Positions 5,901-60,686 of a DNA stretch of 64,000 bases are shown here, piece by piece. A model generated the notes under the pieces. It was given only the letters and a program-made list of their open reading frames with translations. It did no database searches and had not been told where the DNA came from. The stretch covers positions 343,733,846 through 343,797,845 of the forward strand of contig NC_066585.1 of assembly GCF_024323335.1 (NCBI RefSeq), in the 5' to 3' direction. Position 1 is the first letter of the stretch. Each line of letters opens with the position of its first letter. The stretch is from Lathyrus oleraceus. Taxonomy: Eukaryota > Streptophyta > Magnoliopsida > Fabales > Fabaceae. Made by a program: the position numbers and the translations under genes.

Positions 5901-7788
5901 TTGGCCAATGAGTTAATGTCTTATGGTTGGTCTTGACAAATGAGAGGTTTAACCTTCTTTGATCAAAACCAAACTCAACTTGATCCAAGATCAAGTGAGT
6001 TGTTTTGTGTCCAAGATAGGTTGCTTCTTGGTCAAGCAAAAAACCTGAAGTCCATACAAGGTCTCTCCCCTTTTGTTTTGGCATGGCAAGATTGTGGAGC
6101 TTGGCTTACTAGTCATGATCTCTAACTTGTGTTTATTTGCCTATAGTTTTATTGACCGGTCTCAGATAGGTGTGACTACTACATTAGTCCACTTACGATT
6201 GCTTAACATAGCGCTACATTGTCTTATGACAAACTAACATAACTTCACTAATCACTAACTTTAATTTGAGCATTTAATTTCTTGCCCTTTACTTTAATGC
6301 ACTTTATTTCTTGCTCATTTATTCATATTTCTTTTCATTTTGCTCACTTGAGCATATATTTTATGTTTATGTCATTTTTCTTTTGCTCATTTGAGCTCAA
6401 TATTGTATATAAATATATTGTTGTCTTGTGATTGTTTTGTTTTGTGTGAACCTAATGGAAAAAGGAGAAAGGACTTATAATTAGGACATACCCATGCTTA
6501 AAGGAGTTCAAGAGCAACTAGGCCTCATGCCTTTAGAATGCTAAACATGTTAAAGAGCAACTAGGCCTCATGCCTTTAGAATGCTAAATTTCAAAGTTGA
6601 CTCTAAAGGACTTCTTATCTAAACTTATTCTTTGTCCATTCCCCTTATTGTGTTGTGGAATTTTTGATGTTTGCTCTTGTGTGATAGGGATTCCATCTTG
6701 AGATAGTAAAGAGGACCATTGTTATCAATAGCCAAGTTAAGAGAGACAAGCCAAATGGAGATCCAAGGAGCTTGAATCTGAATTGTTTGATTGCTTGATT
6801 GTGTGCTAAGTCCAAAGGAAAGGAACATCTTGAATCATCTCTATGATTTCAAGAAAAGGAACTCTAAGGGTTTTTATCTTTGTCCTCTTATCTTTGCATG
6901 CTTTAGGACTAGCCCTTCTCTTCTTCTCTTTACTCTAACCCAAGCCAAAAATCTTTTCTTCAAACTTTGACTTTGTTTCAAACTAGAAACCTAGGCCTTA
7001 TGCCTTTGACTTTTCAAAATCTTTTCATCAATACTCATTGTGAATAAATCCTAATCCAAATTTGACTTCATTTTGTAAATAAACTTAACTTGTAAATATA
7101 ACTCATTTCAAGTTATTTTTGTGGTTCCAATGGCCACCTTATTAAAACCTTTTCATAAACATTAGTCATAGGTTTGAGTTATCATAGTGGTTGATGTAAA
7201 TCTCACCTCATCCTTAGTGATTGGATTATAAGTCTTCCATACTTATTATAGGGTTAACCCCTCACTAGTATGTTGAAGCTTTCCTCACATGGTGGATTGT
7301 TGGTTTAGGTTGAGTTTTCTCCCTTTGATAACAAAAGACCTTAAGGCTTTTGGTCAAATCAATTCACCAATCTTTGTAATTTTTACCCCGAACTACGAGG
7401 TTTTGATCTTACCTTTGTGATGGTACGTAGGCAATGGGTTCATCCATTCAAACAACCAATTTGTAAATATAATCTATTCTCTTCTCATCCCTCCAATCTT
7501 TTGCACATATTTTCACAAATACCAACCTATAACATATGTTTGCAAAAAGTGGTTCCCTTATAGTACTAAAGATGTTTTGGGTGCGTAAAACCTTCCCATT
7601 TCATAACCAACCCCCTTACCTAGATCTCTGACATTTTTATTAGTTTTTGATTTGACAAAACTTCTTACTTGGCTTTTGTTCGCTTTTTAGCCTTTCCTTT
7701 GGACAAATAAAAGTGCGGTGGCGACTCAAATTGTATGTTTACTTTTGGTTTAGTCAATAAACCTAAAGGTAACGAAAATCCCGCTACA
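2916..7788 (+). mobile_element. Solo LTR (4.87 kb) of an Ogre-like gypsy family
   Basis: The segment begins TGTAAGACCC and ends CCCGCTACA, and is flanked by the perfect duplication CTTTG (2911-2915 and 7789-7793). Joining the flanks restores the host reading frame (FEPRFLC followed by TPEFGKWW). There is no primer site, polypurine tract or coding sequence, so it is a solo LTR left by LTR-LTR recombination. Length and the shared ACTACG...TACGTAGGCA module at 7391-7433 link it to the Ogre LTRs further right. The whole 4.9 kb is AT-rich and noncoding; small open frames within it are not convincing. Confidence 0.9.
4446..4453 (+). promoter_or_regulatory. TATA box of solo LTR
   Basis: TATAAATA about 1.53 kb into the LTR, followed by a pyrimidine-rich stretch. 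Likely promoter of the former element. Confidence 0.5.
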
Positions 7789-25109: not shown

Positions 25110-27768
25110 AAGAGGAAATTCCATAAATGGAGATGTCACCATTGTGGTAGGCTTGGCCATATAAAAGCCTTCTGCTACAGGCTTCATGGTTACCCTAACC
25201 AAGCCCCTCATGTCAGACCTAAGCATAAGACATATAGGCACAATGTCCCCATCAAGAAGCGGCAATGGTATGCTAGGTTAGCTCACACAGCTCTAAGGGC
25301 ATCTACCAGAGAAGACTGGTACTTTGACAGTGGCTGCTCAAGACATATGACTGGTATGGAGAATTTATTGGTGGATATACAACCTCACTCTACCAGCTAT
25401 GTGACCTTTGGTGATGGTGCTAAAGGAAAAATAAAAGGTGTGGGTAAGCTGGACTGCTCTGGAGTTCTAGAACTGAATAATATGCTGTTAGTAAAAGGAC
25501 TAACGGCAAACCTCATCAGCATAAGTCAATTGTGTGATCAAGGGTTTTATGTTCAGTTTACTAAGGAGCTATGTGTTGTGACAAATGGAGACAACCAGGA
25601 AGTTATGAGAGGATCCAGATCCAAAGATAACTGTTATCTGTGGGAACCTAAAGTCTCAAACTTCTCCATAATCTGTTCCTCAGCCAAAGAAGAACAGGAG
25701 GTGAAGCTGTGGCATAGACGCCTTGGACATCTCCACTTACGGGGAATGAAGAAGATCATATCCAAGGAAGCAGTCAGAGGAATCCCAAAGCTGCTTATTG
25801 ATGAAGGAAGAGTCTGTGGGGAATGCCAGGTCGGCAAGCAAACCAAGATGTCACACCCTAAGTTGGGACATCCTACAACCTCCAAAACTCTGGAACTTCT
25901 GCACATGGACTTAATGGGACCTATGCAGGTTGAGAGTTTGGGTGGAAAGAAGTATGCCTATGTGGTTGTTGATGACCATTCTAGATACACTTGGATAAGC
26001 TTCATCAAAGAAAAGTCAAATGCATTTGATGTCTTCAAAGAACTGTGCATCAGACTTCAAAGGGAAAAGGACAGTTGTGTTGTCCGAATTAGGAGTGACC
26101 ATGGGACGGAGTTTAAGAATTCCAGGTTTGATGAGTTTTGCTCGTCTGAAGGGATAAGTCATGAGTTTTCCTCTCCTATAACTCCTCAGAAAAATGGGAT
26201 AGTTGAAAGGAAAAACAGAACTATTCAAGAATCTGCCAGGGCGATGATTCATGCAAAGAAGCTTCCTATGCACTTTTGGGCCGAAGCGATGAATACAACT
26301 TGCTATGTTCACAATAGAGTTACCTTGAGAAAAGGAACCTCCTCCACTCTGTATGAAATATGGAAAGGCAGAAAGCCCACTGTGAAGTACTTTCATATCT
26401 TTGGAAGTAAATGTTACATTCTCACAGATCATGAACAGAGAAGAAAAATGGATCCCAAAAGTGATGAAGGTGTATTCCTAGGATACTCAACTAACAGCAG
26501 AGCTTACAGAGTGTTCAACTACAGGACCAATGTCCTGATGGAATCCATAAATGTTATTGTGGATGATAAAGAGGAGGGAATCGATGTCATAGAGGATGTT
26601 GGAACATTCCTTGATACTTCAACAGACATATCAGTCAAGTCTGAAGAAGTACTGGAGACTCCTCCTGAATGTGAGGTAGATGTACCCACCAAAATGCCAT
26701 CTATCAGAATTCAGAAAGACCGCCCTAAGGATCTTATCATAGGGGATCCCAATAGTGGTGTGACTACCAGGTCAAGGGAAATTAGCTCAAACTCCTGTTT
26801 TGTATCCAAGGTTGAACCAAAAAATGTGAAAGAAGCCCTGACTGATAAATATTGGATCAATGCCATGCAAGATGAACTGGAGCAGTTTAAAAGGAATGAA
26901 GTATGGGAGCTAGTTCCACGACCTGAAGGGACTAACATCATTGGTACCAAGTGGATTTACAAGAACAAGTATGATGAGAAAGGAGTAATCACTAGGAATA
27001 AAGCAAGACTAGTGGCTCAAGGATATACTCAAGTTGAAGGGGTTGATTTTGATGAGACGTTTGCACCTGTTGCTAGACTTGAGTCAATCAGATTGCTGTT
27101 AGGTGTGGCCTGCATTCTGAAGTTAAAATTGTTCCAAATGGATGTAACGAGTGCATTTTTGAATGGCTACATAAATGAAGAAGTCTATATGGAACAACCT
27201 AAAGGGTTCTGTGATCCTAACCAACCTAAACATGTGTACAAGTTGAGGAAAGCCTTGTATGGGTTAAAGCAAGCACCTAGAGCTTGGTATGAAAGGTTGA
27301 CTGAATTTCTGACCTCTCATGGGTACAGAAAGGGTGGGATAGATAAGACCTTGTTTGTGAAGGACACAGATGGAAAAATCATGATTGCCCAAATTTATGT
27401 GGATGACATTGTCTTTGGTGGAATGTCAGAGCAAATGGTGAAACATTTTGTTCACCAGATGCAATCTGAGTTTGAAATGAGTCTAGTTGGGGAACTAACT
27501 TATTTTCTTGGAATGCAAGTTAACCAAATGGAGGATTCTATGTTTCTCTCCCAGAGCAAATATGCCAAAAACATAGTTAAGAAGTTTGGTATGGATAATG
27601 CTAGGCACAAAAGAACTCCTGGACCTACGCATTTAAAGTTAACCAAAGATGATGGAGGTCCCAGTGTTGATCAATGCTTGTATAGAAGCATGATAGGTAG
27701 TCTACTATATCTAACTGCAAGTAGACCTGATATTTCCTATGCAGTTGGAGTATGTGCTAGATACCAGG
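25110..27768 (+). pseudogene. Copia D protease, integrase and most of RT
   Basis: In frame with gag after the TAG. A second zinc-binding block CHHCGRLGHIKAFC is near 25140. Protease active site DSGCSRHMTG is at about 25326. Integrase has HRRLGHLHLRGM ... CGECQ and the D-D-E residues in HMDLMGPM, RSDHGTEF and NGIVERKN. RT has LFQMDVTSAFLNG, YGLKQAPRAWY and the intact YVDDIVFGG. The frame is cut at 27768 by Ogre E after VCARYQ. Confidence 0.9.
27764..27768 (+). other. Target duplication of Ogre E, left copy
   Basis: CCAGG; the second copy is at 54684-54688. It shows integrase-mediated insertion of E into D. Confidence 0.95.
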
Positions 27769-29334
27769 TGTCGCAACCTGAAAAATACAGTGCGCGAAAA
27801 AACAACCGGCGAAAGAAAATGACAGAAGAGTCGCCACCATGCGTTATTCATCCCAAAGGAGGGAAAGGAAACGCTCGAAGTAAACCTGAAAAAAGGAAAG
27901 AACAAGACGGGGTCTCGCAACCAAATCTTGGGTTCGGGAGTCGGTTATGCGAAGGGAAGGTATTAGCACCCCTACGCATCCGCAGTACTCTACGGGATCC
28001 ACTTTTGTGGTTCTTGTCTAAAGGGTGTGAGTTTACCTAATGTGTTTATTTACTAAAAAGGTTAAGAGAAATGACTCGCGCGGATGTCGCATCCACTGCA
28101 TACGTATCTCATCTGAATATGAGAATCAAAGTCTTCGTAGCTCGGCTGACCTATGGGTTGGGGGGATGTGTGCTCGCTAAGACATCGCGTCTTATGCCTA
28201 CGTATCTCATCTGGAATAAGAATCAGAGCAAGCCGTAGTTCGGCTAACTACGGGGTTATGGATTGCATTTCGGGGTGAACGACGTTACTACGCAATCTAC
28301 CGGATGCTCGACCTTTGGAAACTTACTCGCCTGTAGTAGAAGGAGTAAACGTGTTGCTTTGGGTTTTAGGGTTTGTTTGCGTTGTAGGAACGCGCATACA
28401 CAAAGGAAGTCCTAGGCGAAGGAACAGTGCTACCTTAATTGGCATGCAAACGGGAGACTATCCGAAGCCTCGTGTCCTATGGGGAAGCGATCACACCACA
28501 CAAAACATGTATCTTAAAGTAAAATGCCACCAAGGGGCTCAAACATTGCCTCCTATCGAGGTCTTCCAGCTAAGAAAGCGATAAAGTACGAGAAAGGGAA
28601 AAAATTACCACACGGATAAAGATCCGAAGTTACAGCAATTAAAGGATTAGCAACCCTGAGATCTCTCCAGCTAGACCATCAAAGAAAATCAGTCAATACG
28701 AGTAATCAGAATAAACCTCCGCATGGTATCCCTGCAAGAGTATGTGAGTCCTCACAAAAACTCAACAGAAAGGTTAGACAAACAAGATGAAATCCAGGGA
28801 AAACAATGCCATGGCAACACAAAGACAGATTAGAACAAAACAGAACAAAAAGGGCGAGTGCTGTCATATTCGCGACTGCATCGCCTAGCGAGGCGGCTAG
28901 CGAGCGCCTGCGGGTTTCGGGTTTCTCATTGATAATAGTCTGATGTTAAGGATTCCAGACCCTATGGCATTCATCTCAGAAACGAAATTATTAAACATTC
29001 AAAGCATTATTCACATATTCATACACAAATATAAACCCATGGGCAAAACCTGATGTTACCTCATACATTCATAGCATTCAAATTCAAGGCATAAAGTAAG
29101 AGGAACAAAGGCATACCTGATGAGAGAGGCCGATCAAACGGCGCGGCTGGATTTGCAAAGCTCTGTTAGGGTTTGCGTGAGGCAGAGGCAAAAGAGCGTG
29201 TGAATCGGAGTGAACTTCTCAGAGCTGCCTGAAGATTGCTGCAGAGTAGTTCCTAGGTCTCCTTCTCTCAAAATCTTTCTCCAGTGAATCTCCCAGTGTA
29301 ACTCCAAGTGTGTTTTCCTCTACTGAAACTTCGG

Positions 29335-29342
29335 TATTTATA
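29335..29342 (-). promoter_or_regulatory. TATA box of E 3' LTR
   Basis: TATAAATA on the minus strand; the same box is at 54256-54263 in the 5' LTR, where it would drive the element. Confidence 0.6.
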
Positions 29343-29420
29343 GACTGATTTCGTGGGTAGTGGGCTCAAATGAGGGCAACTCAAGCCCAAAATCTTTCTG
29401 ATATTTTCTGAAATGCGCGC

Positions 29421-29503
29421 CCTTCGCCTAGCGAAGGATCTGCTCGCCTAGCGAGCATGACAGTACTTCTCGCTAGGCGAAGCATCTGCTCGCCTAGCGA
29501 GCA
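29421..29503. repeat. CGC-CTA-GCG hairpins in U3 of E
   Basis: CCTTCGC-CTA-GCGAAGG at 29421-29437 and TGCTCGC-CTA-GCGAGCA at 29441-29457 and 29487-29503: three perfect 7-bp stems with the same loop. Repeated in the 5' LTR at 54342-54424. A weaker cluster is at 28881-28905 and 43440-43510. Confidence 0.85.
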
Positions 29504-29762
29504 TGACAGCTCAGCAGCAGATTCTTGTTTCTTCCAGCCTGGCGATTTGCACGGTGAATAGGCCCCATCTGGCCCTGTTGGTAGTACCTCAAGTCTTTTC
29601 CTTGTGTTGACTGATCGTCTAAGTAGAACCCACAAAGTGTCCTGGATGATGTCCGAGCTTCTTGGAGCTAATTCCGATTGACATGATGCAATGTGGTATG
29701 AAATGCTAAATGACCTAAAAAGTGAATGCATGAATGAGGAGGGCAAATTTTGGGGTGTTACA

Positions 29763-42328: not shown

Positions 42329-43756
42329 TGTCGCAACCTGAAAAATACAGTGCGCGAAAAAACAACCGGCGAAAGAAAATGACAGAAGAGTCGCCACCGT
42401 GCGTTATTCATCCCAAAGGAGGGAAAGGAAACACTCGAAGTAAACCTGAAAAAAGGAAAGAACAAGACGAGGTCTCGCAACCAAATCTTGGGTTCGGGAG
42501 TCGGTTATGCGAAGGGAAGGTATTAGCACCCCTACGCATCCGCAGTACTCTACGGGATCCACTTTTGTGGTTCTTGTCTAAAGGGTGTGAGTTTACCTAA
42601 TGTGTTTATTTACTAAAAAGGTTAAGAGAAATGACTCGCGCGGATGTCGCATCCACTGCATATGTATCTCATCTGAATATGAGAATCAGAGTCTTCGTAG
42701 CTCGGCTGACCTATGGGTTGGGGGGATGTGTGCTCGCTAAGACATCGCGTCTTATGCCTACGTATCTCATCTGGAATGAGAATCAGAACAAGCCGTAGTT
42801 CGGCTAACTACGGGGTTATGGATTTCATTTCGGGGTGAACGACGTTACTACGCAATCTACCGGATGCTCGACCTTTGGAGACTTACTCGCCTGTAGTAGA
42901 AGGAGTAAACGTGTTGCTTTGGGTTTTAGGGTTTGTTTGCGTTGTAGGAACGCGCATACACAACGGAAGTCCTAGGCGAAGGAACAGTGCTACCTTAATT
43001 GGCATGCAAACGGGAGACTATCCGAAGCCTCGTGTCCTATGGGGAAGCGATCACACCATACAAAACATGTATCTTAAAGTAAAATGCCACCAAGGGGCTC
43101 AAACATTGCCTCCTATCGAGGTCTTCCAGCTAAGAAAGCGATAAAGTACGAGAAAGGGAAAAAATTACCACACGGATAAAGATCCGAAGTTACAGCAATT
43201 AAAGGATTAGCAACCCTGAGATCTCTCCAGCTAGACCATCAAAGAAAATCAGTCAATACGAGTAATCAGAATAAACCTCCGCATGGTATCCCTGCAAGAG
43301 TATGTGAGTCCTCACAAAAACTCAACAGAAAGGTTAGACAAACAAGATGAAATCCAGGGAAAACAATGCCATGGCAACACAAAGACAGATTAGAATAAAA
43401 CAGAACAAAAAGGGCGAGTGCTGTCATATTCACGACTGCATCGCCTAGCGAAAGCTTAGCGAAGCTTCGCTGCGTGCTCGCCTAGCGAGGCGGCTAGCGA
43501 GCGCCTGCGGGTTTCGGGTTTCTCATTGATAATAGTCCGATGTTAAGGATTCCAGACCCTATGGCATTCATCTCAGAAACGAAATTATTAAACATTCAAA
43601 GCATTATTCACATATTCATACACAAATATAAACCCGTGGGCAAAACCTGATGTTACCTCATACATTCATAGCATTCAAATTCAAGGCATAAAGTAAGAGG
43701 AACAAAGGCATACCTGATGAGAGAGGCCGATCGAACGGCGCGGCTGGATTTGCAAA
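42329..43756 (-). repeat. 5' LTR of Ogre E, 3' portion
   Basis: Matches 27769-29159 of the 3' LTR except for scattered transitions and a 37-bp insertion near 43448-43485 made of CTAGCGA-type sequence. It is broken at 43756 by F; 10 bases present in the other LTR (29160-29169) are missing at the break. Confidence 0.93.
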
Positions 43757-44668
43757 TGTTTGCTTTATTTTGATTGTGCTCGCATGCTTTGCTTTTCCTG
43801 GTTAGGATTAGCTTGCAGCTTGTGCAAGATAGATAGAGAACTCAACCTAGGACCATTGTGGAATACATGATAACTATTAGGCTCCCTTCTAGTTGGTCAT
43901 TTCCCAGTCTCTGGTTAGGAGAAAGTTTCTCCCCTGTTAAGGGGAACTACGTTGCCCTGATCCTCATACCAGATGAGGTACGTAGGCAGGAGGTCGTACG
44001 AGATCTCTCCGGGCACCATTTTTTCTTTTTGTGTGTGTTTGCTTGACAGTTGCTAGGCTCGAGTGCCAGACTCCTTAGTAACTTGTTGTGTGTTATTCTT
44101 CTTGTGTGTAGGAGATGGATGTAAGCCCAGCGATTGGCATTCCGTATCCTCTTGTTGTGTGCTTGGAGTCCGATATAAGTCCATCAAGTGGCATTTGGTT
44201 TCCAGTGTGGGTTTGTTTGGTTCGGAGTCTGATGTAAGTCCAGCGATTGGCATTCGGTTTCCATGTTTGCCTGTTTGCGTGTGTTTTGTTTGGCGTGCGT
44301 GAGCCGAACTACGGTAGCTCTGATTCTCATTCCAGATGAGATACGTAGGCATATGATGCGATATCCTAGCGAGCCCTTTCTCCTCTTTTCCACCTGTGTT
44401 GTTTTCAGTGTGTGTGTGTGATGTTTGTTTTAGCAACCTTGTTCTATCTTCTGAGCGTGGATCCCGTCGAGTACGACGGATGCTTAGGGGTGCTAATACC
44501 TTCCCTTCGCATAACCGACTCCCGATCCCATCTCTCTTTGGTCACGAGACCATGTCTTTTCCAGGTTTACTTCGAGTGTTTCCTTTCCCTCTTTTGGGAT
44601 AAATAACGCACGGTGGCGGCTCTGTTTGTTTTGTTTTAGCCCGCCGGTTGTTTTTCACGGATGCGACA
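43757..44668 (+). repeat. Inverted partial LTR of F
   Basis: Reverse complement of 49105-50031 of the F LTR at high identity. It has the GATCCCGTCGAGTACGACGG block (44462 on), two copies of the two-stem module (43945-43985, 44305-44352) and ends GATGCGACA as a normal LTR end. It lacks the first four fifths of the LTR. Confidence 0.9.
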
Positions 44669-44670
44669 GC

Positions 44671-44688
44671 TGGCGACTCTGCTGGGGA
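44671..44688 (+). other. Inverted primer-binding site of F
   Basis: TGGCGACTCTGCTGGGGA. Homology to the normal leader stops right here; the next bases (TAATCACAAG) come from a site some 730 bases inside the leader, in the other orientation. Confidence 0.9.
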
Positions 44689-45227
44689 TAATCACAAGCC
44701 CCTCTGAACCAGCCCGGGGAATCCTGAAATAAACGGATCCCCACTAATAAATACCACGGACAGAACTCCGGCATCTCGGAAATAAATGTCCATAAATCTG
44801 ACTTATAAATAGGACTCTTATCAACGGAACCATTAGTCACCATCAAAGTCACCATCGGAACATGCATCTGTACGGATCACCCTCCCCTCACAGGTAAATT
44901 CTAATCAGGTCATCCTAAGGCGGATAATAGTCTCGACAATCAGGCAAAGATACTCAATGGGTTTGCCCTTTCGGGTGTGCCGTTGTAGCTCCCTTAAGAT
45001 CGTCTAAACCAAAGATCCGGGAAAGATCGGTCACCGAAGTCAATAGCTCAAAAGAGGTAACTAGACCAAAGTGGAGTACTCCACAATGGAAAAGCTCCCT
45101 CAGATGAACCTCGTCCAGCTTGTGGTATGTCACGTTGCAACAATATGCTGATAAAGCAAATGAGGAACGTGAGACCACACTAATCCTAGGTGTATACTCG
45201 GATTTATCCACGATTTTATCCACGACT
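44689..45227 (-). repeat. Second copy of the F leader segment
   Basis: Near identical to 48352-48866 and in the same orientation. It ends at GTATACTCGG, followed by filler with two copies of TTATCCACGA. Confidence 0.9.
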
Positions 45228-45276
45228 CCATTGTGGAGTACTCCACTTTGGTCTAGTTACCTCTTTTGAGCTATTG
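45041..45276. repeat. Perfect 49-bp inverted repeat at an F junction
   Basis: 45041-45089 and 45228-45276 are exact reverse complements, 138 bases apart. The right arm joins leader sequence directly to the end of the gag fragment. The arm begins CAATAGCTCAAAAGAGG. Confidence 0.92.
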
Positions 45277-45902
45277 ACATCCGACATCAGCGCAAAATTG
45301 ATGGCTTTAGAATCCACCAAATCTTGAACGACATGCTTAAAAGCTTTACACCCCTCAATGTGATGTCCGGGTGCCCCAGCATGGAACTCGCACCTGACAT
45401 TCTCATCATAACTTGCAAGCCTCTGCTCCGGTTTCCCTGGAACCAATGTCCTTGGCTGCACCAATCCGAGATCCATCAACCTTTTAAACAGAGAGGCATA
45501 AGTCACGGGCGGTTTATCGAAATGACGATCTGTCGTCCTTCTTCTCACTTGGCACCCAGCTTTCTGTGTTCTCGGTGGAGGTGACTGCCGCTGCTGTAGT
45601 ACAGATGAATTACCAGCAGGAATAGTTACCGCAGCAGTGTACGGGTGATAATGATCCTTACCCCTTTTGGCATGCACATCCCTTGATTCAACCTCCTTCT
45701 TGTGCTGACTACTGCCAGAGGGCTGCTTTACTCCAGACGACAGAGCATCTCCCTGGGTTTCCCCCATTCTCAGCCAGTTTTCAATCGTCTCCACCTTCTC
45801 GGCGATCGCTTTCTGCCCCTTGGCGAGCCCTCGTACAACATTGAACAACTCTCTCATCATCTCTTTCAATTCGAGAATGTCGGCGTTGGGGAGATTCGTC
45901 AT
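45216..45902 (-). pseudogene. F gag without capsid
   Basis: Starts MTNLPNADILELKEMMREL (45902), runs through a short coiled coil to GDALSSGVKQPSGSSQ, and then directly to the C-terminal part with CEFHAGAPGHHIEGCK. The capsid region of about 170 residues present in E is absent with the frame kept. The last 20 or so codons come from the 49-bp repeat and filler. The product could not form a capsid by itself. Confidence 0.8.
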
Positions 45903-46340
45903 TCCTGTGTCAATCAAACAGGTTAGAAACTGACACCTGCAAAACAGAAGACAAGTTATTATGATTATGCATGAATGCAATGTCTATCCACATGAGGAAC
46001 ACTTTGTCTCTCGATCCTGGTTTCATCGAGACAGATAATAATCCGGCAACATTATTCTGATATTCAACATTTGATTTCATCATACAGAGCAGGGATATGT
46101 GATTTAGCAAAATACCACCTGACCATGTGTGTGCTGTGTGAATGCATACGGGAAAGCAAATAAAGCTTGAAGATTGATCACTGAATGAAAACAATCATCA
46201 CATAGCAAAATGCACAATAAGTGCCATAGTCATACATCACAGTTGATACAAATCAAATACAATTCTCCAGAATCAAGAAGGAAATACAGGCAAATGAATT
46301 CCGTCAACAGGCCTGACGGTAATCCACACAAAAGAAAGGT

Positions 46341-48062
46341 CTAGCCTGACGAAGGTCCCACAGAAGGCCCTATATCATCAACCATCCTCGCAAACTCTGC
46401 GGCGAACCTGAGCTCGGTGTTCTCCTGCTGCAATCTCCCCACCTCCTTCTGGTGAATCTTCATCTGCCTGAAGTAATGATCTCTCTCAGCAATGTAGTGA
46501 TCTCTCTTGGCGATGATCTTCATGTTCTCTGCTTCCTTGGTCTTCAGCTTTGTCTCCCACTCAGCGATGAGGACTCTGACTCTATCTTCCCTCTGATCTC
46601 TCACGAGGATCTGCCTCCTCTTCTCATCTTCAATGACCTTCACAGCTCTGGCTAGCTTCTCCTTAGTGACGTCGTGCTCCTTTGTTGACGACGCTAGGGC
46701 TTGGCTGACCTTCCCATAGTAGGCAGTATCCATCTCAAAGCGCTTTGCTTCCAGGGCATGTCGCTTATCCTGATCTTCCATCCTTACTTTGATCTCTTGA
46801 TTAGCCATCTGAATACGAGCAACACTCATCTCCAATTCGGCTTTCTCTGCAAGCAACTGATCTCTGTCCCTCTTCATCTCGAGGAATTCTTCCATACTGA
46901 CAGAAGAACGCGGACCCTCAATCATAGGACACCAAGAATCACCTCCAGGAAACGGTAGATGTGTGATCTCTATCCTCTTCCGAAGCCAATCGTCAAATGG
47001 AGGAAAAGACCTGCTGTTGACCTTGCCAAAAGGAACCTTGCCCTTCCTCTGAATATTACGCCATGCCCCAGACACCTGCCTCAACTTGGTCTGATTACCC
47101 TCAGCTGGGAAGTAGAACGACTCCTGAATCTCACGCTCGAGAGGAGGAACCTCCATAGCAAACCCCATGTGTCTCCTAAGAAGCGTCGGGTTGTAATTAA
47201 TGCAACCTTGAACTCCTATAAGAGGCACATTGGGAAAACTCCCACAACTGTAGATGAAATCTCGTCCGGCCACACCATTGTGAGTCCAAGCTATATCAAT
47301 GGCTCGCAAACCCATCAACCTGACTGACCACTTGACCGTAGGATCAAGAGCGACAAAAGCACCTCGGGAAGGCAAATACCCCATAAACCACTTGTACAAC
47401 ATCTGGGCACAACACCTGATCAAACCCCCACGCCGCTTCTCGTTCCTGTTATGAACCGAATAATAGACATCTCCAATCAGAGTAGGAATGGGATTCCTCT
47501 GCACAAACAGCCTGATGGCATTAATATCCACGAAATTCTTCTGATTAGGGAACAAGATGGTCCCATAAATGCTCACAGCAATCAAGGCACAGACCGTCTT
47601 CCAATTACCCAAAGCAGCATGTTCCTTGGCCTTAGCCTCCAAGAAACTCAAATGAAAACCGGGTAACTTTCCTTTCTCTTTTAGACCCCCCTTTGTCACC
47701 TCCGGACTCAAATAAAGAGCACGAGAAATCTCCGCAATGTCAGGCTCCACCCTAATGGCACTGAAAGGAATCTGATCTCTGATCGGAATACCCAAGATGC
47801 TAGCATAGTCCTCCATCAAGGGCCCCAACAAGTAATCTGGAAACACGAAACACCTCAAACCAGGGTCATAGAACTGGAGAAAAGTATGAATGGCGCTCCT
47901 GTCACTGTCTGTGAGTCTGAAAACCAACTTCAGAATACCACCGTATGCCTCTCTGAACATCCCCACATGGTCGGGCGTAATCAATGCTATCATATCCTTC
48001 AGCACACTGATCTCTGGGTCAAAGAAGCAATAGACAACATCGTCCTTCAAACCGGTCCTCAT
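46341..48062 (-). CDS. F ORF1, intact Ogre ORF1 protein (573 codons from MRTGLKDD)
   Basis: Unbroken frame (open from 48275; the ATG at 48062 aligns with the ORF1 start of E). The N-terminal globular region shares LQFYDPGLRCFVFPDYLL, PGFHLSFLEAKAKEH, NPIPTLIGDVYYSVHNRN, CGSFPNVPLIG with E. From about residue 390 it is charged and coiled coil (EEFLEMKRDRDQLLAEKAEL onward). Function unknown; no enzyme motif seen. Notable as the only intact long Ogre frame in an element that lacks pol. Upstream ATGTTTATCCATATGCAG may be a splice acceptor. Confidence 0.8.
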   Translation of the reverse strand: MRTGLKDDVVYCFFDPEISVLKDMIALITPDHVGMFREAYGGILKLVFRLTDSDRSAIHTFLQFYDPGLRCFVFPDYLLGPLMEDYASILGIPIRDQIPFSAIRVEPDIAEISRALYLSPEVTKGGLKEKGKLPGFHLSFLEAKAKEHAALGNWKTVCALIAVSIYGTILFPNQKNFVDINAIRLFVQRNPIPTLIGDVYYSVHNRNEKRRGGLIRCCAQMLYKWFMGYLPSRGAFVALDPTVKWSVRLMGLRAIDIAWTHNGVAGRDFIYSCGSFPNVPLIGVQGCINYNPTLLRRHMGFAMEVPPLEREIQESFYFPAEGNQTKLRQVSGAWRNIQRKGKVPFGKVNSRSFPPFDDWLRKRIEITHLPFPGGDSWCPMIEGPRSSVSMEEFLEMKRDRDQLLAEKAELEMSVARIQMANQEIKVRMEDQDKRHALEAKRFEMDTAYYGKVSQALASSTKEHDVTKEKLARAVKVIEDEKRRQILVRDQREDRVRVLIAEWETKLKTKEAENMKIIAKRDHYIAERDHYFRQMKIHQKEVGRLQQENTELRFAAEFARMVDDIGPSVGPSSG

Positions 48063-49084
48063 GTCTGAGTAAAGAAGTCTCTCAACCAGGATCTCAATCA
48101 AAATGTCCCTGCATATGGATAAACATGTGTTAGATGCAGATAAATGCAAAATGCGATGATGCTGATGAATGAATGCAATGCATTGTGCCATCCTCCAAGT
48201 CATCTGAATAACCACTGTACTGAAGCCTTGATCTCTGAACTGATCACAACCATCTGAAGGAATATGTAACCACAAATCCGACTTGGGGTTCCGAAATAAA
48301 CGGAACGGAATGATACATCACCATCATCACCTGAGATCCACTGATCTGATAATCACAAGCCCCTCTGAACCAGCCCGGGGAATCCTGAAATAAACGGATC
48401 CCCACTAATAAATACCACGGACAGAACTCCGGCGTCTCGGAAATAAATGTCCATAAATCCGACTTATAAATAGAACTCTGATCAACGGAACCATTAGTCA
48501 CCATCAAAGTCACCATCTGAACATGCATCTGTACGGATCACCCTCCCCTCACAGGTAAATTCTAATCAGGTCATCCTAAGGCGGATAATAGTCTCGACAA
48601 TCGGGCAAAGATACTCAATGGGTTTCCCCTTTCGGGTGTGCCGTTGTAGCTCCCTTAAGATCGTCTAAACCAAAGATCCGGGAAAGATCGGTCACCGAAG
48701 TCAATAGCTCAAAAGAGGTAACTAGACCAAAGTGGAGTACTCCACAATGGAAAAGCTCCCTCAGATGAACCTCGTCCGGCTTGTGGTATGTCACGTTGCA
48801 ACAATATACTGATAAAGCAAATGAGGAACGTGAGACCACACTAATCCTAGGTGTATACTCGGGCCTGGGTTTTAGCCCCACTCAGAACACCCACCCCAAA
48901 ACAGAGGAACCATCTGTACAGAGGACAGCAGAATGATAGTATGATGCATGCAAATATTTATGCAAATATATATACAAAAGAATAATCAATGCAATAAATA
49001 GAGCAACAAGCAACCTAAACTATCCTAGAACGCTAGGAGAGACTCGCTTAGGGAAGATGGACCAGCAATAGGTCAACTTCTATG
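48063..49084 (-). other. 5' leader of F
   Basis: Noncoding between primer site and ORF1. The part at 48352-48866 is the one duplicated at 44689-45227. Confidence 0.75.
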
Positions 49085-49102
49085 TCCCCAGCAGAGTCGC
49101 CA
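49085..49102 (-). other. Primer-binding site of F
   Basis: TGGCGACTCTGCTGGGGA on the minus strand, two bases from the LTR end at 49105. Confidence 0.9.
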
Positions 49103-49104
49103 GC

Positions 49105-52100
49105 TGTCGCATCCGCGAAAAACAACCGGCGGGCTAAAACAAAACAAACAGAGCCGCCACCGTGCGTTATTTATCCCAAAAGAGGGAAAGGAAACGCTCG
49201 AAGTAAACCTGGAAAAGACATGGTCTCGTGACCAAAGAGAGATGGGATCGGGAGTCGGTTATGCGAAGGGAAGGTATTAGCACCCCTACGCATCCGTCGT
49301 ACTCGACGGGATCCACGCTCAGAAGATAGAACAAGGTTGCTAAAACAAACATCACACACACACACACACTGAAAACAACACAGGTGGAAAAGAGGGGAAA
49401 GGGCTCGCTAGGATATCGCATCCTATGCCTACGTATCTCATCTGGAATGAGAATCAGAGCTACCGTAGTTCGGCTCACGCAAGCCAAACAAAACACACGC
49501 AAACAGGCAAACATGGAAACCGAATGCCAATCGCTGGACTTACATCAGACTCCGAACCAAACAAACCCACACTGGAAACCAAATGCCACTTGATGGACTT
49601 ATATCGGACTCCAAGCACACAACAAGAGGATACGGAATGCCAATCGCTGGGCTTACATCCATCTCCTACACACAAGAAGAATAGCACACAACAAGTTACT
49701 AAGGAGTCTGGCACTCGAGCCTAACAACTGTCAAGCAAACACACACAAAAAGAAAAAAAGGTGCCCGGAGAGATCTCGTACGACCTCCTGCCTACGTACC
49801 TCATCTGGTATGAGGATCAGGGCAACATAGTTCCCCTTAACAGGGGAGAAACTTTCTCCTAACCAGAGACTGGGAAATGACCAACTAGAAGGGAGACTGA
49901 CTCGAGCCTAATAGTTATCATGTATTCCACAATGGTCCTAGGTTGAGTTTTCTATCTATCTTGCACAAGCTGCAAGCTAATCCTAACCAGGCAAAGCAAA
50001 GCATGCGAGCATAATCAAAACAAAGCAAACATACACAATTAGCACACACTATATACAGACAAAGGTGGGCTCATACAAGGGTTAGGCTGCAAAAGCAAGC
50101 CAACTGTATCGGGGTGATGTTAGCTCTTAACCCTAACATTGAGAGTTAGGGTGAAGCAAATGAAATAGGAGGTGAGGGGTGTGCCTCACAGATCTTATCC
50201 CTGGCCAGGGAGAGCTTTAGACAAATGAAGTGTGGGTTCATAAAGTGGGAACCCTTCTACACTTATGACTGACTCAACATGGATCTTGGGTTAATATCCA
50301 CAATGCATCAACACCAGTTGTGTGAGCAAAGGGATGACTCAACTGAATAGCAGGAGATGGATTGCACATCTCTTGTATATGCCAATTGCCTTAACAAAGG
50401 TCTTTTCCTGCTTGGGGACAAAGATAAACAATCACAAGCATTGCCTCTTAAGGAGGACTTCAGACAGGTGCCTGACCAAATAACAGGCCAGGTCGTCCAG
50501 ACTACATGAAGTTAGTGAGCTATACCTCAATTGGTTAAGCAACCAAGCAACAGCAAAAGCAAGTTCACAATGAACTATAGGAACTAATGTACCTGAAATC
50601 AATCTAACATAATCAGTACACAGCTCAAACAGTCAAACAGATAAGCTAATGGTCAACAGTCAACTGTACATAAACAGACAAACAAACAAAGCAATGCACA
50701 AAGGTGCAATCCTCAATGCCTAAGTACAAGTCTCAAAGCCTACAAAACAAGCTCAAGGTTAGTCATAAACAAGCAATGGACCAACTCCAATTGAGTGCAC
50801 ATCATCAAGTATAAGCAATTGTGCTCTTTGACCTGAAACAAAGCTCAAACATTAAGCACTAACCACTAGGACATGGCCTAGGGTCAAAATGGGAGCAATA
50901 AACCAAAACAGAACATGAAAATTATCAAAAATCAAGTTCAATCAAATAAGAAACAAATCCAAGTGGTCTCATAGCCATATCGTCAACCAATTTCATTTCA
51001 TAAGGCAAAGAGCACAAAGCATGCAATTTAGAACCTCATAGAACCAAACAGAATGATCCAATCCAAACTAACTCAAAAATAATTCAATAAATCCCAAGAA
51101 AAATCATGGCTAAACAGAACTCATTACATGATCAACACACCAAAATTCAAGTCATTTGGACAAGTGGAAGCATGTCAAATAAATTCCCTAAGGCAAGGTA
51201 AGGCAAAATAAGCTCATACAAGACATAAAATCATGCATCAACTTCAAGCAAGCCTAAAACAGAATCTACACATGATAAATGAATCAAACCAAAGCCATGG
51301 CAAACTTTAAAGTTCCTAGAATCACTCCACAAAATTTCAAGTCGATGTGATACATATCAAGAATTTCACAAAACATCTAAAATCAAGACTCACAAAAGAT
51401 CCACAATTGGTCAATCAGAAGAGAAAATCTCAAACCAATAGGAAATGCATCCAAAAATTCCACAAACACTCACAAGCAATCTTAACATCTAGAAGTATCA
51501 ACATGCAAAAATTCACATCAATTCAAGTTCATATAGCAAGGTAATGAAAATCCACAAGTTGGACAAGAAATGGTGTGACACACATTGTCACACCTAGATT
51601 GATCAGCTCATATCTCACAAACCAGAAATGATAAAATCACAAACTCAAAGCCAAAATGTCACTTAGGATCTCTAGTTTGTGCATGCAAAATTTCAAGAAT
51701 TTTGGATTAAGCATCATCATTTCACAACCAAAATAGCAAGCAAGGTGCAAGCAAATATAAGCATGAGCAAACCCTAGGCCACATAAAAATCCACACGTGC
51801 ACAATTTTTGTAAAAATCACCATAAAATAGTAGGGATCTTGATGAACACAATGGAAAAAATCTCACATTAATTGGACAAATAATCATGGAGTTATGGAAT
51901 TTGTAAGTGAGTGAAAAAATAAAAAAAAAGTGAAATGGCATGGTGAAATATGTATACATGAAGTGAAGAAAAATGCAAGGCAAATTGGTGAAGTGATCCA
52001 GCTGAGGATCGAACCGGCTCAAAGTTTAAATCTGCGCGCCACTTAATGAAACGCACCGTTTCATTAAGTGAGGTGGCCAAGCACTATTGGCTGCATGGGA

Positions 52101-54090
52101 GACAAACACAAGAAACATAAAAAACAGGCCAGGCGAAGATCTACACGATTCTGGAAACGATTTTCAAACATTCATCCATGTTCATCATAAACCCTAGGCT
52201 CAAGAACAATTGTGCTCAGAAATTTACAAAACCTATATCACTAGAATCCTCTTTCAGCGTACATTAACAATCTCAAATCAATTTGATCTAAATCTTCCTA
52301 GAACTCTTGGATCGTGCAAGATAAGTTTCACACATCAAAATGAAAATCAACATAACTTGTTCATTTCTCCATGGATTTCAATGGTTCAAATTGCAGATTA
52401 ACCTCCTAAGTAAGATCTATAAGATACATCAATCAATTTCAAGAATTAGCACATGCAAAATCTAACCTTCTATGATGTGCAGAAGTGAAATAGTGGATTT
52501 CAAGCTATGGCAAGCAAAAACAGAAGTTCTTCAACTCTCATATGCATGAATGAAGCAAGGTTTGGAAGCTAATCGCGCTTGATAAGTCCAGAAAATCAAA
52601 TTGCCATGGATGACCTTCACTTCAACAGTTCCAAATTGAGCTCGAATTCCTTGCAATCTTGTTTCTAATGACTTCAATTACGCACAGGGATGAAGGATTG
52701 ATCAAGACCTTGGCACGGTTTGTGAAGAAAAATGAAGAAAAGTTGAGAGAAGAAGTTGAAGAATTTTTGGATTTCTAGATCTAGATCTCAATTCTGTTAT
52801 CATTAGCAATGAAACAGTTATGATTTAGCTTTTATATGTGATGCTAATGATGTTGGTAATCATGTTTAGCCTAAGTGCAAGTAATTAGTGAAATGCAAGT
52901 TTTATGCTAAATTGGCCAATTCACCCTTCACATGTGATTCAATGTAACAGTGCAGGGTTTAGTTTCAATTCAGTTGGAAATGTTGTTTCTAAGCCAAGGC
53001 AAGTGGATCCAAGTGAATTCCATGCTTATTTTTCAAATTCACCATTTTCCCTCCAAATTCAAATTAAGTTCAAGTGAAAAATGCACTTTTTTTGTGATGC
53101 GTTTTAATGAAATGTGATGCATGAATTGGATAGAAGAGATCAAAAGAAAATTGCTCCAAAAAGAACCACATGATTTGGCCATTTGGTGCAAAAGTTATGC
53201 ACTTTTGAAATTCAACTTCCATGGACAATGATTTGATCATAACTTGCCAACCACAAATGAGAAACGCATGTTCGTGGACTTTTTGGAAAGGTGAGAGCAA
53301 GATCTTCAACTTTCATGTTGAACAAAATTTCATTTGAAGCATTTTTGGATATGTAATTTTAAGGAGAAGACCTTTCCATTTTTGGCAATTTTGAATTACA
53401 AGTCACTTTCTATTTTTGGAAAGTTTTCATCTGACTTTATTTTCTTCATTGTTGATGTTTGAAATGTCAAATGAAACTTGTTTGGACATGAATGAAGTGT
53501 CTCTAACCCTCTCCCACCTCCAAATCCATCAGTTGACCTTTGGTTGACTTTTGTTGACTGATAGATGAATGGGCTATGCATTGATGAACTTGAGCTTCAA
53601 ACTCCTGATGAAATGGCTCAAACATGAAACCCTAGCTTCCATAAGCTCAATGAAACCATAGGATGATCCCCATCTCATTGAAGACCTCATCTCCTTTGAC
53701 AAGCCCTGATTGGCACAATGCAGATGATTAGGGTTGACCAGAGGTCAAAACCCTAATCCCAAGGCATCTGATCAAGCACAATGAATCTCTTGGTGATGAT
53801 AAGACCATAATGATGATGATGTACCATTTCAACCAAGATGATGATCAATCTCCTTGAGGAACCATGAAACCCTAATCTGAAACACCAACCCTCATATGAT
53901 TAGTGATCAATCCATGAAACCCTCCAGCTTGAATCTTTTAACCTCTTTATCTTCTGATCAAGACCTAGGAGGATGACTTGCTCAATGTAGCCATATGATA
54001 TGCAAAGATGCAATGACTAATGACCTAAAAAATGCAATGCAATATGTTAAGCTAGTCCCAAGAGAGGAGGGCAAATTTTGAGGTGTTACA
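49105..54090 (-). repeat. 5' LTR of F (4,986 bp)
   Basis: On the minus strand it begins TGTAACACCTC and ends GATGCGACA. Likely TATA box TATAAAA at 52836-52830, followed downstream by pyrimidine-rich sequence; a TATATA is also at 50055-50050. A 14-bp stem hairpin is at 52040-52070. A short AC run is at 49353-49368. No genes: 50040-54060 is noncoding, A-rich on the plus strand, and related to the LTR of G. Confidence 0.9.
52040..52070. repeat. 14-bp stem hairpin in F LTR
   Basis: CACTTAATGAAACG, loop CAC, CGTTTCATTAAGTG: perfect arms. The counterpart in G is at 57350-57382. Confidence 0.95.
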
Positions 54091-54683
54091 GGTTTGCGTG
54101 AGGCAGAGGCAAAAGAGCGTGTGAATCGGAGTGAACTTCTTAGAGCTGCCTGAAGATTGCTGCAGAGTAGTTCCTAGGTCTCCTTCTCTCAAAATCTTTC
54201 TCCAGTGAATCTCCCAGTGTAACTCCAAGTGTGTTTTCCTCTACTGAAACTTCGGTATTTATAGACTGATTTCGTGGGTAGTGGGCTCAAATGAGGGCAA
54301 CTCAAGCCCAAAATCTTTCTGATATTTTCTGAAATGCGCGCCCTTCGCCTAGCGAAGGATCTGCTCGCCTAGCGAGCATGACAGTACTTCTCGCTAGGCG
54401 AAGCATCTGCTCGCCTAGCGAGCATGACAGCTCAGCAACAGATTCTTGTTTCTTCCAGCCTGGCGATTTGCACGGTGAATAGGCCCCATCTGGCCCTGTT
54501 GGTAGTACCTCAAGTCTTTTCCTTGTGTTGACTGATCGTCTAAGTAGAACCCACAAAGTGTCCTGGATGATGTCCGAGCTTCTTGGAGCTAATTCCGATT
54601 GACATGATGCAATGTGGTATGAAATGCTAAATGACCTAAAAAGTGAATGCATGAATGAGGAGGGCAAATTTTGGGGTGTTACA
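54091..54683 (-). repeat. 5' LTR of Ogre E, 5' portion
   Basis: Continues the E LTR after F, matching 29170-29762 with two substitutions noticed. It includes the TATA box (54256-54263) and the CTA-loop hairpins (54342-54424), and ends TGTTACA before the target duplication CCAGG at 54684-54688. Confidence 0.93.
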
Positions 54684-57382: not shown

Positions 57383-59405
57383 ACGGAATAATTACCGTTT
57401 TGCCATTCCAGCCTTTTTATTTTAATTAATTCATTTCTTTCTCAAATAATTATTTCATTTTGCTACCAAACTTTGAAAAATCATATCATCATCATCCTTG
57501 ATCCAAATTTCGTGGGAATTTTTGCATTATCTTCATCATGATCTCTACTTTTTTATCATATTTTTTCCAGAATTTTGTGATCAATGGATTTTAAATGGCA
57601 TTAGGGTTTTGTTCATGTGACCAATTTTTGTACATCTTGCCAAATCTTTTGTGAAATTGTGATGCATTATCCATTTGATCTGAAATTTTTTGTGCTCAAA
57701 CTAGACTCACTCATGATGTAAAGATCATGAATTTATCTTATGTGGTTTGAGAGTTGTGAATTTTTGAAGTAGGGTGTGACAATTTGTGTCACACCATTGA
57801 TGTGCAACTTGCTGATTTTTGTATCCATGCTTCTTGACCTCCAAATGAATTGATTTTTTGCATGAACCTACTCTTGTATGTCTAGTTTACATGTGAATTT
57901 TCTGGGAATTATTTGAGGCATTTCCTAATTGTTTGAGATTTTCTCCCCTGTTTGACCAAAATGTTGACTTATTGTGATACATGTTGCCATTTCATTTGGG
58001 AAATTCTCATACTTTATTGGATGATCATGAAATTTTACATGTGCATACTAGACATCCTCATCTTTGCCATGGTTTTAGTCCCATTCATTTATCATACAAC
58101 CTCTCTGATTTATGATTTTTCTAAATTGATGCATGTTTGGTTGACTTCCTTGAGCATGTTCAAAACTACTTTGACTTTCTGATTTTCATTGGCTGCCTTC
58201 CACTTGTACAAATGCAATGAAATTTGACATGCTTACCATGCTATGTGTTAGGATTGGTCTTGATTTATTTGATAATTTTTGGAAATGTTTGAGTTGACTT
58301 TTGATACAAGTCATTCTGTTGACTTCTTTGAGCTCTCCCTTGCCATGCTTTGACTTCTTTTGCTTGTGAATTGATGATGATGCATGATATGAACATGAAC
58401 CCAATTGAGATTGCTTCTTATATGTTTGAATTTGGTTTTGATTGGGCATTTCTTGCTGTTTTGACTTTTTCATTCTCTTTTGACCCTAGGCTTGCCCTAG
58501 TGGTCCTGGTACTCACTTTTGAGCTTATGTTTTCAGGTTGAACACCAAATGACCAATGAGATCAATTTCTTTTGATTAAGCTTGCTCGAATAGCATTGTT
58601 TAACTTTGTTTGTTTTGTAGGTGGCTTGACCCATATGATTTGAGTCTTGTGCTTTGCACATTTGATTATCTGATTTGACTGTTGATTCCTATTTCCTTTG
58701 TTTTAACTTGTGAACTGTGTACTGATCTGTTTGACCATTTCAGGTACCATTAGTTGCTTAAGTTCTTTGAACTTGCTTTGCTTTGCTATTTAGCAACTTG
58801 CTTGAGGTATAATTTCTTTTTCTTCATGTAGTCTGGAAGACCTGGCCTGTTACTTGGCCAGGCAACTGTCTGAAGTCCTCCTTAAGAGGCAATGCTTGTG
58901 TATGTTTAATTTGTCCTTGTACATAGTCAAAGACCTCCTAAGTGAAGAGGCAATTGGCAGAACCAAGGGATAAGCAACCTATCCCCTGCTATTCAGTGTG
59001 TCTTCTGTTTTGCTCACACCACTGTGTTGACGCATTACAGATACAAACCCAAGATCTTGTACAACTGTACAGTTGAGTCAGTATCAAATGTGTAGAAGGG
59101 TTCCCACTTTCTGAACCCACACATTCTTGTCAAATGCTCTCCCTGGCCAGGGATAAGAGCAATGAGGCACACCCCTCATCTCCTTTCATCTGCTTCACCT
59201 TAGCCCCTCAATGGCAAGGTTAAGAGCAACATTCACCCCATTTCCAGAGGTTTGTTTGTTGAGGTTGATATGACCCCTCGACTAAAACCTAACCCTTGTG
59301 TGAGCCCCTTGTGTGTATATAGTGTGTGCTACCTGTGCTTGTATGTTTGTTTGACTTGCTTCCTGTGCAAGTTAGGTTTAGTTTAGACTAATCCTTGTTT
59401 GCTTT

Positions 59406-59735
59406 CGCCCTCGTTGCGACCCTTTCTCTCGCCCTCGTTGCGATCGAGCCTTTTCCTTTCTCTCGCCCTCGTTGCGATCGAGCCTTTTCCTTTCTCTCGC
59501 CCTCGTTGCGATCGAGACTTTCCCTTTCTCTTGCCCTAGTTGCAATCGAGACCTTTGTCCCTCCGTGGCCGAACTACGGCAACTCTGATTCTCATGTCCA
59601 GATGAGATACGTAGGCACGAGATGCGATGTCTTGTCGAGTTTGACTAACAACTAACACTAATTCTTTTCTCTCGCCCTCGTTGCGATTGAGACCTCCCCT
59701 TTCTCTTGCCCTAGTTGCAATCGAGACCCTTGATT
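59406..59735 (+). repeat. 34-bp tandem repeats in G LTR
   Basis: Units with CGCCCTCGTTGCGATCGAG and a TTTTCCTTTCTCT spacer start at about 59406, 59430, 59464, 59498 and 59532; two further copies are at 59672-59733 beyond a module copy. The last copies carry C-to-T changes (CCCTAGTTGCAATCGAG). Confidence 0.85.
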
Positions 59736-60464
59736 CCTGTGCAAGTTAGGTTAGGTGTGGCTTGCTTCATGTGCAAGTCATGTTTAGGATAGGCTTGCTT
59801 CCTGTGCAAGTTAGCTAGAAACCTTAACTTAGGGACGACTTTGCATGATAACATCTAGGCTCGAGTCGTAGTCTCCCTAGTTGTGTCTCCCTCTGTTATC
59901 TGGTTAGGCTAGATCCTTTTTCCCTGCGTAGGGGAACTACGTCGCCCTGATCCTCATACCAGATGAGGTACATAGGCAGGAGATGAGCTGATCTCTCCGG
60001 GCGCCTTTTTCCTTTTTCAACCCTTTGTGTCTTAACCACCCTTGCGTGTGTTTTGGTTTGGATGCTGATGTAAGCCCAGTGATTGGCATTCAGGCTCCAT
60101 GTTTGCCTTCTTGCGTGTGTTTGTTGGTTCGGATGCTGATGTAAGTCCAGTGATTGGCATTCGGGCTCCACGTTTGCCTTTGTCTGTTTGTTTGTGTGCG
60201 TGTCAGCCGAGCTACGAATGCTCTGATTCTTCTCTCGTCCGAGAAGATACGTATGCATAGGATGCGATATCCTAGCGAGCATGTGTCGTCTCCCCATTCC
60301 GAACTACTTCGACTCTGATGTCTATGCCTGATAGACTAAGTAGGCCCAGGATGCGACATCCTGCCGAGTCAGTTTCAGTCAGTTTCTTTTGTCTCTTTCA
60401 GCCAGTGTGTGTGAGTGTGAGCAGCGTTTTAGCAACCATTTTTCCTTCCTTTTGTGCGTGGATC

Positions 60465-60480
60465 CCGTCGAGTACGACGG
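60465..60480 (+). promoter_or_regulatory. Conserved U5 hairpin of G
   Basis: CCGTCG-AGTA-CGACGG, a perfect 6-bp stem, in a block conserved in all Ogre LTR ends here (C 17583-17598, E 27980-27995, F 49294-49309, inverted F 44464-44479). The role is inferred only from conservation. Confidence 0.7.
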
Positions 60481-60668
60481 ATGCGTAGGGGTGCTAATAC
60501 CTTCCCTTCGCATAACCGACTCCCGAACCCATTCTCTTTGGTCGCGAGACCATGTTCTTTCCTAGGTTTACTTCGAGCGTTTCCTTTCCCTCTTTTGGGA
60601 TAAATAACGCATGGTGGCGGCTCTGTTGTTTCTTCTTTTCCCGCCGGTTTTTCGCGTAATGCGACAGC

Positions 60669-60686
60669 TGGCGACTCTGCTGGGGA
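60669..60686 (+). other. Primer-binding site of Ogre G
   Basis: TGGCGACTCTGCTGGGGA, two bases after the LTR. Confidence 0.9.

Follow-up and report, generated by a model that had tools for sequence, protein, structure and literature searches.

The window, a stretch of 64,000 nucleotides of Lathyrus oleraceus DNA that was analysed as a whole, carries LTR sequences referred to here as A, E, F and G. Element E encodes Retrotrans_gag, RVT_1, RT_RNaseH, RVT_3 (a second RNaseH) and rve domains, that is, gag together with the Ty3 order of RT, RNaseH, second RNaseH and integrase, and we take its lineage to be that of the Tat/Ogre LTR retrotransposons. Element F carries a DUF7745 open reading frame. 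The 5′ LTR of E is apparently interrupted, as the counterpart of positions 29164-29762 of the 3′ LTR resumes at 54084-54683, and a 10.3-kb block (43756-54084) with two inverted F LTR ends is seemingly nested in it. A Ty1/copia element is located on the forward strand at 23622-28037 (Retrotran_gag_2, RVT_2 and rve), and its frame runs up to the 3′ LTR of E.

These LTRs contain a module of about 70 nt, present in the window in 13 copies, seven on the forward and six on the reverse strand (Table 1). The copies in G, E, F and at about 7.4 kb that had been named from the sequence alone were recovered within a base or two, the inner hairpins of G being re-measured at 59590-59607, 59952-59968, 60228-60247 and 60320-60336. 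The sequence-only reading had described two stems, an outer one (here P1) and an inner hairpin (here P3); both are real, but the description was incomplete, since P4 and P2 had been missed and the module is predicted to be a four-helix pseudoknot with the strand order P1a-P2a-P3-P1b-P4-P2b. P4 is a third hairpin immediately 3′ of TACGTAGGCA, as for instance TAGGATG-CGA-TATCCTA in G3. P2 is formed by the bases just before TGAT and the strand directly after P4, usually behind a two-base joint (NC) whose C directly precedes P2b. Because P2 crosses P1, the whole module would be a pseudoknot. P1 has 5 bp, starts with C and is nearly invariant and palindromic (TACGTA), and the loop of P3 shows no conservation. 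The near-invariant unpaired bases are UGAU before P3, UA after P3, GCA after P1 and the C before P2b (77 of 81 copies); the base preceding AACTACG, just 5′ of P1, is G in 79 of 81. The arms of P2 differ among the window copies (Table 1). The copy-by-copy parse picked P2 and P4 for maximal pairing and is therefore descriptive, the tests being the alignment statistics given below. Within the window TACGTAGGCA occurs with at most one mismatch at 13 sites, against 1.14 expected, a number reached by none of 100 shuffles; these 13 sites and the 13 module copies are different sets. Repeats resembling CTCGCCCTCGTTGCGATCGAGAC are placed before and between the G modules (59400-59730) and are also found in loci L043, L061 and L067.

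Table 1. Module copies and associated sites in the window, with the positions and arm sequences of the helices
Feature	Positions	Strand	Context	Helices
A	7391..7454	+	different LTR family	P2 7400-7403/7450-7453 (GTTT/AAAC); P3 7410-7413/7422-7425 (TACC/GGTA); P4 AATGGG/TCCATT
E1	28073..28142	-	3′ LTR of element E	P2 GACTT/GAGTC; inner hairpin 28107-28124
E2	28171..28240	-	3′ LTR of element E	P2 TGCTC/GAGCA
E1'	42633..42702	-	5′ LTR of element E	P2 GACTC/GAGTC
E2'	42731..42800	-	5′ LTR of element E	P2 TGTTC/GAGCA; inner hairpin 42765-42781
F1	43945..44015	+		P2 TGCCC/GGGCA; inner hairpin 43962-43978
F2	44307..44375	+		P2 GCTC/GAGC; P4 with mismatch; inner hairpin 44325-44341
F2'	49402..49470	-	inverted second copy of F LTR end	
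F1'	49762..49832	-	inverted second copy of F LTR end	
G1	59572..59641	+		P1 59574-59578/59610-59614; P2 59581-59585/59637-59641 (AACTC/GAGTT); P3 59590-59595/59602-59607; P4 59618-59623/59629-59634
G2	59935..60003	+		P1 59937-59941/59971-59975 (1 mismatch); P2 59943-59947/59999-60003 (CGCCC/GGGCG); P3 59952-59957/59963-59968; P4 59979-59984/59991-59996
G3	60210..60282	+		P1 60212-60216/60250-60254 (1 mismatch); P2 60218-60223/60277-60282 (ATGCTC/GAGCAT); P3 60228-60234/60241-60247; P4 60258-60263/60269-60274
G4	60302..60370	+		P1 60304-60308/60339-60343 (CTACT/AGTAG); P2 60311-60315/60366-60370 (GACTC/GAGTC); P3 60320-60325/60331-60336; P4 60347-60352/60358-60363
TGGCGACTC, PBS-like site	60669..60677	+	LTR end of G	
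TATAAATA, likely core promoter	29335..29342	-	3′ LTR of E, 1102 nt upstream of E2	
TATATAAATA, possible core promoter	6406..6415	+	983-985 nt upstream of A	

G-U cells outnumber C-A cells among the aligned copies (88 versus 29), which points to the sense strand as the RNA. The sequence TGGCGACTC, which we read as a primer-binding site (PBS) of tRNA-Arg type, is located downstream of the module, on its strand and within 1.6 kb, in 47 of 75 distinct rows, and in antisense within the same distance in 4 of 75. Counted per LTR end, the PBS-like site was found for 27 and not found for 14, and in those 27 the last module precedes it by 305-403 nt; the distances for L071 (308 nt) and G (367 nt), whose rows were merged in the distinct set, derive from other coordinates. 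At 7.4 kb the PBS-like site follows the copy at 7391 after 327 nt, so that the label of solo LTR formerly attached to this copy cannot be given. On the 5′ side, five E-type LTRs (L033 twice, L054, L071 and E of the window) have a TATAWAWR motif 838-1102 nt ahead of their first module, and two A-type loci (the window and L072) have one 983-997 nt ahead of it; these are a minority of the loci, most others having none within 1.5 kb or one elsewhere. From the positions of TATA box and PBS we infer that the modules are transcribed, about 1 kb downstream of the TATA box and in the leader just before the PBS. On the simplest reading, the 5′ leader would measure about 1.3 kb and carry the modules in its 3′ portion.

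The alignments were built from 99 places, reduced to 75 distinct rows by removing those in which under 85 bases were left and those whose first 80 bases were the same as in another row, from which 27 representatives with less than 90% identity were aligned with MAFFT without structure. On this alignment alone RNAalifold found P1, P3 and P4 (17 pairs, 13 of them with changes on both sides); hence both stems noticed by eye, together with P4, are recovered unaided from dissimilar copies. When P2 was added, 91.7% of 589 cells were paired, versus 73.5% after shuffling and 31-45% (maximum 44.9%) with the arms slid. A covariance model built without P2 was then used to align 84 copies, 81 of them distinct, from which L029 and L030, repeats of L022 and L027, were left out. 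In the 81 copies the four helices are paired in 94.4% of 1764 cells, versus 76.0% after shuffling, with 373 double-change cells versus 112.5, and none of 500 shuffles reaches either value. P2 alone, absent from the model, is paired in 92.8% of 400 cells and shows 91 double-change cells versus 27.6 in the shuffles; of 80 distinct copies, 74 retain its four-pair core and six have it broken, and its arms form seven different Watson-Crick pairs. The claim of selection on RNA folding, first made from the matched base changes in both arms, is upheld by these data, as the paired percentage, the double-change cells and the covariation score all lie above the 500 column shuffles, for the whole structure as well as for P2 alone.

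Other measures are less discriminating. The number of pairs with a double change in the whole structure was matched by 1 of 500 shuffles with 27 copies and by 12 of 500 with 81, and for P2 alone by 243 and 401 of 500, respectively; the number of pair types in P2 alone was matched by 423 (27 copies) and 226 (81 copies) of 500. When P2 arms of different copies were cross-paired, 1928 of 4870 combinations still paired, G-U being allowed. Single-sequence folding energies are unremarkable (z of −0.11 for G1, −1.73 for G3, −2.02 for G4 and −2.65 for L027), and the antisense strands of the same four fold about equally (−0.01, −2.53, −1.77 and −2.77). The nested minimum free energy fold, which cannot show both helices, forms P2 and not P1 in G3, G4 and L027, three of the four sense folds.

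Because shuffles ignore kinship, a tree-based test of our own was built, R-scape-like but not R-scape itself: a FastTree tree, Fitch substitutions, random re-placement of the substitutions of each branch over the columns, and an APC-corrected G statistic. It comprised 80 of the 81 rows (one was truncated) and 77 of 102 columns (the others being more than half gaps), and the tree rests on these 77 columns. Of the 2775 column pairs, 6 had E below 0.05 against 1000 nulls, and all six are structural, as are the five significant pairs of a run with 200 nulls; the ten best covarying pairs of the 2775 are all structural as well, the first non-structural one being at rank 11. In the two-set form, 10 of the 22 proposed pairs pass: two of five in P2, four of six in P3, four of six in P4 and none of five in P1. 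A covariation test against phylogenetic background, of the kind that the earlier reading had called for, came out in favour of the fold, with no P1 pair passing. By parsimony, both sides of a pair changed in 51 cases; one-sided changes preserved the pair in 60 and broke it in 45. The copies share ancestry, yet the covariation of P2, P3 and P4 exceeds the tree-based null, and P4 and P2, the helices added here, carry much of the evidence.

The outer-stem pairing proposed earlier stands in part. The double change of G4 (CTACTT/AAGTAG) is genuine and also present in L043, L046 and L058, which together with G4 look like one subfamily; but 4 of the 13 window copies have at least one P1 mismatch (CATAG in G2, CGTAT in G3 and E1, CATAT in E1'), and P1 is statistically the weakest helix. 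Its sole pair with double changes (G-C 71, A-T 4, T-A 3, G-T 2, A-C 1) shows four double-change branch events and a two-set E of 0.107, so that P1 alone is not significant. The rank-11 pair, columns 2 and 51, lies outside the proposed structure and links the base before P1a with the last base of P1b: AACTACG goes with CGTAGGC, and the partner of AGCTACG is often CGTATGC; this may reflect a register shift at the base of P1. In P2, the aligned sample contains 18 copies with matched ACTC/GAGT and one with ACTC/GAGC. For the P2 column pair 12-93, genome-wide counts are 65,700 for GCTC...CGAGC, 769 for GCTC...CGAGT (G-U) and 1,273 for ACTC...CGAGC (A-C mismatch), figures drawn from families of related repeats in which the events are not independent. 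Taken together, pairing and covariation indicate that the module is almost certainly a four-helix pseudoknot under selection on its RNA fold.

A strict pattern of P1, TGAT and P1b has 86,323 and 85,658 exact matches on the two strands of the 3.795-Gb assembly (171,981 in all), and the same pattern read backwards, as control, has 0 and 2. In a sample of 200 kb, taken as twenty 10-kb pieces from fixed round coordinates, the covariance model found 32 copies, spread over 10 of the pieces and partly belonging to its training set; the extrapolation is about 6 × 10^5 copies per genome if the sample is representative. The modules are arranged in tandem, one to five per LTR end, with helix sequences that differ between copies. 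Seven loci came from scanning genome records of bacteria and archaea; two were kept and five (best 20.5 bits) set aside. L022 (NZ_QPKJ02000028.1) lies in a Solirubrobacter scaffold and has a flank that resembles by eye the LTR end of G, and L027 (JAFUBK010000065.1) is a contig, chimeric in appearance, of a roe-deer gut metagenome-assembled genome; both would be plant LTR sequence contaminating bacterial records. These two copies from outside the genome, in plant-like DNA, keep P2 (GGACTT/AAGTCC and GGCCTT/AAGGCC). They are part of the training set, and their model scores therefore prove nothing; they were accepted on P2, P3 and, for L027 only, P4, that of L022 being unconvincing. The 21 and 11 loci from IMG/VR scans were all dropped, none exceeding 17.5 bits, versus at least 41.5 for full-length copies of the window and genome sample.

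That the module has no name, as first remarked, agrees with the absence of a family for it in Rfam (window and four loci) and among the literature matches listed. In Rfam 15, the window had no match at the gathering threshold and the G modules had none at E up to 5; for L022 and L027 there was none to the module and none to HDV models at E up to 1. On L022, L027, L026 and L023 the hits were confined to two weak ones, which lie in L022 outside the module: one to MIR529 (23.1 bits, cut-off 75), which was discarded, and one to wcaG (28.5 bits, cut-off 42) at 3168-3245, in the plant-like LTR end over TGGCGACTC. In full-text literature, mostly outside subscription journals and not covering older Ogre papers, no description of the module was found among the matches listed, and the titles matched by the module strings as text query were, among those listed, unrelated. 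In the accessible parts of the papers concerned, PMC10578108 on enod40 and transposable elements deals with other stem-loops, PMC3601003 states that plant Metaviridae LTRs could not be modelled, and PMC11963269 on Retand lacks the terms 'hairpin', 'secondary structure' and 'RNA structure'. A primer match in PMC2077865 was to actin.

Ogre-type elements make up much of the large legume genomes, and the ways in which plant Ty3 elements select, protect and translate their RNA are, to our knowledge, little understood. We propose that this compact pseudoknot of about 70 nt, kept by selection, probably serves Ogre/Tat-type LTR retrotransposons as a cis-acting RNA element on the U5 side, within the 5′ leader of their genomic RNA. 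As a rigid handle, it could let Gag or the reverse-transcription complex recognise the RNA of its own element, in the manner of a packaging or dimer signal, and tandem copies would add binding sites. This role, the likeliest of those considered though short of probable, is a guess, suggested by the location of the module in the inferred leader, its tandem arrangement and its presence also in F with its DUF7745 frame. The Ty1 leader has a pseudoknot near the PBS. The module shares with it and with retroviral packaging signals, in the accessible accounts, the nature of a leader RNA structure near the PBS; it differs from them in structure, and we know of no such signal that is built of tandem, independent modules of about 70 nt. 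Retrozymes, likewise a structured RNA motif inside plant LTRs, are described in the sources at hand as hammerheads of non-autonomous elements, and the hammerhead had no Rfam match in the window or the G modules.

Several other explanations were weighed against a packaging handle. A nearly invariant, palindromic P1 and copies related by descent might mean that a protein binds the DNA palindrome TACGTA, or that old repeats were passed on neutrally, with no RNA function at all; this we disfavour as very improbable, given the covariation of P2, P3 and P4 above the tree-based null, the excess of G-U over C-A cells and the seven Watson-Crick arm pairs of P2. Nested folds with P2 and without P1 suggest that the two helices may alternate, and with compensated changes in both they might form a switch by which the RNA toggles between translation and packaging; the joints, short and nearly constant in length, fit one joint pseudoknot instead, and we give the switch little credence. 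Tandem pseudoknots might also help ribosomes to cope with the leader of about 1.3 kb, whose length is estimated from the PBS and TATA positions, through internal entry or shunting. With the module 305-403 nt before the PBS-like site and, as far as seen, no adjoining start codon, such translation control is unlikely.

The two remaining explanations come from known RNA folds. The strand order of the module is that of the HDV ribozyme, whose active-site joint between P4 and P2b consists of a catalytic C plus spacer. The crossing of P1 and P2 is shared with HDV-like ribozymes (HDV, CPEB3, R2 and the 5′ ends of L1Tc), several of which occur on the 5′ side of retroelements, as the module occurs in a retroelement. 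A self-cleaving ribozyme would process the leader or release element RNA from read-through transcripts, and the near-invariant C before P2b, the HDV-like order, the fold itself being covered in PMC4908430, and the precedents in non-LTR retrotransposons, as reported in the accessible part of the literature, argue for it. According to the portion of PMC4908430 at hand, however, P1 of the HDV-like fold has 6-7 bp and is cleaved at its first base, whereas P1 of the module has 5 bp, starts with C and follows a conserved base, needless for a 5′ cleavage site; P3 is flanked by the UGAU and UA joints and has an unconserved loop, and the usual two-nucleotide joint (NC) takes the place of the long joint before P2b. 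Among the HDV hallmarks examined only the strand order is found; the P1 length and the P4-P2b joint differ, and no Rfam ribozyme, HDV models included, matched in the window, the G modules, L022 or L027; self-cleavage thus appears improbable. In xrRNA_D of plant viruses, the partner of the 3′ pseudoknot strand is the P2 hairpin loop. Like the module, xrRNA_D is small and pseudoknotted, belongs to a plant host and has conserved bases before the 3′ pseudoknot strand. An exoribonuclease-resistant pseudoknot would stop 5′-3′ decay of decapped RNA and protect the PBS and the coding part, with tandem copies as back-ups, and the compact fold, the tandem copies and the conserved bases just 5′ of P1 would suit it, xrRNA_D depending likewise on its pseudoknot in the accessible part of PMC6299227. 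The arrangement differs, since xrRNA_D is described there as P1, P2 and pseudoknot, whereas the 5′ pseudoknot strand of the module is in the P1-P3 junction, and Rfam gave no match in the window, the G modules, L022 or L027; we regard this block as a rather doubtful candidate.

The broadest reading, for and against which the grounds appear evenly balanced, would be that of an undescribed class of double-pseudoknot RNA with hundreds of thousands of copies per genome, its modules often in tandem in the leaders of several plant LTR families. Since it combines the HDV topology with a different core, it might represent a novel kind of ribozyme or a hitherto unknown fold that blocks exonucleases, and, whichever it is, the RNA of the element would need it as a handle. 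A foldable, mutable element of 70 nt near the PBS would make RNA selection, protection and translation in plant Ty3 elements testable, and one strict pattern, with 171,981 places against 2 in the reversed control, offers a handle for annotation. For the study of RNA structure, an RNA that joins HDV topology to another core would be of interest independently of what it does.

A second conserved hairpin is observed about 185-250 nt downstream of the last module; its loop resembles TGCCTAACACCTT, its stem is GGG/CCC, and its outer arms vary in sequence but remain complementary (ATGCG/CGCAT, ACG/CGT and CGAGGTGGG/CCCACTTCG). A loose regular expression for it matches 29 of 84 rows, though in several of these it hits something else. 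Its sites are at 60480-60514 (by eye) and 7570-7610 in the window, at 3068-3116 in L022, and in L043, L051 and L063.
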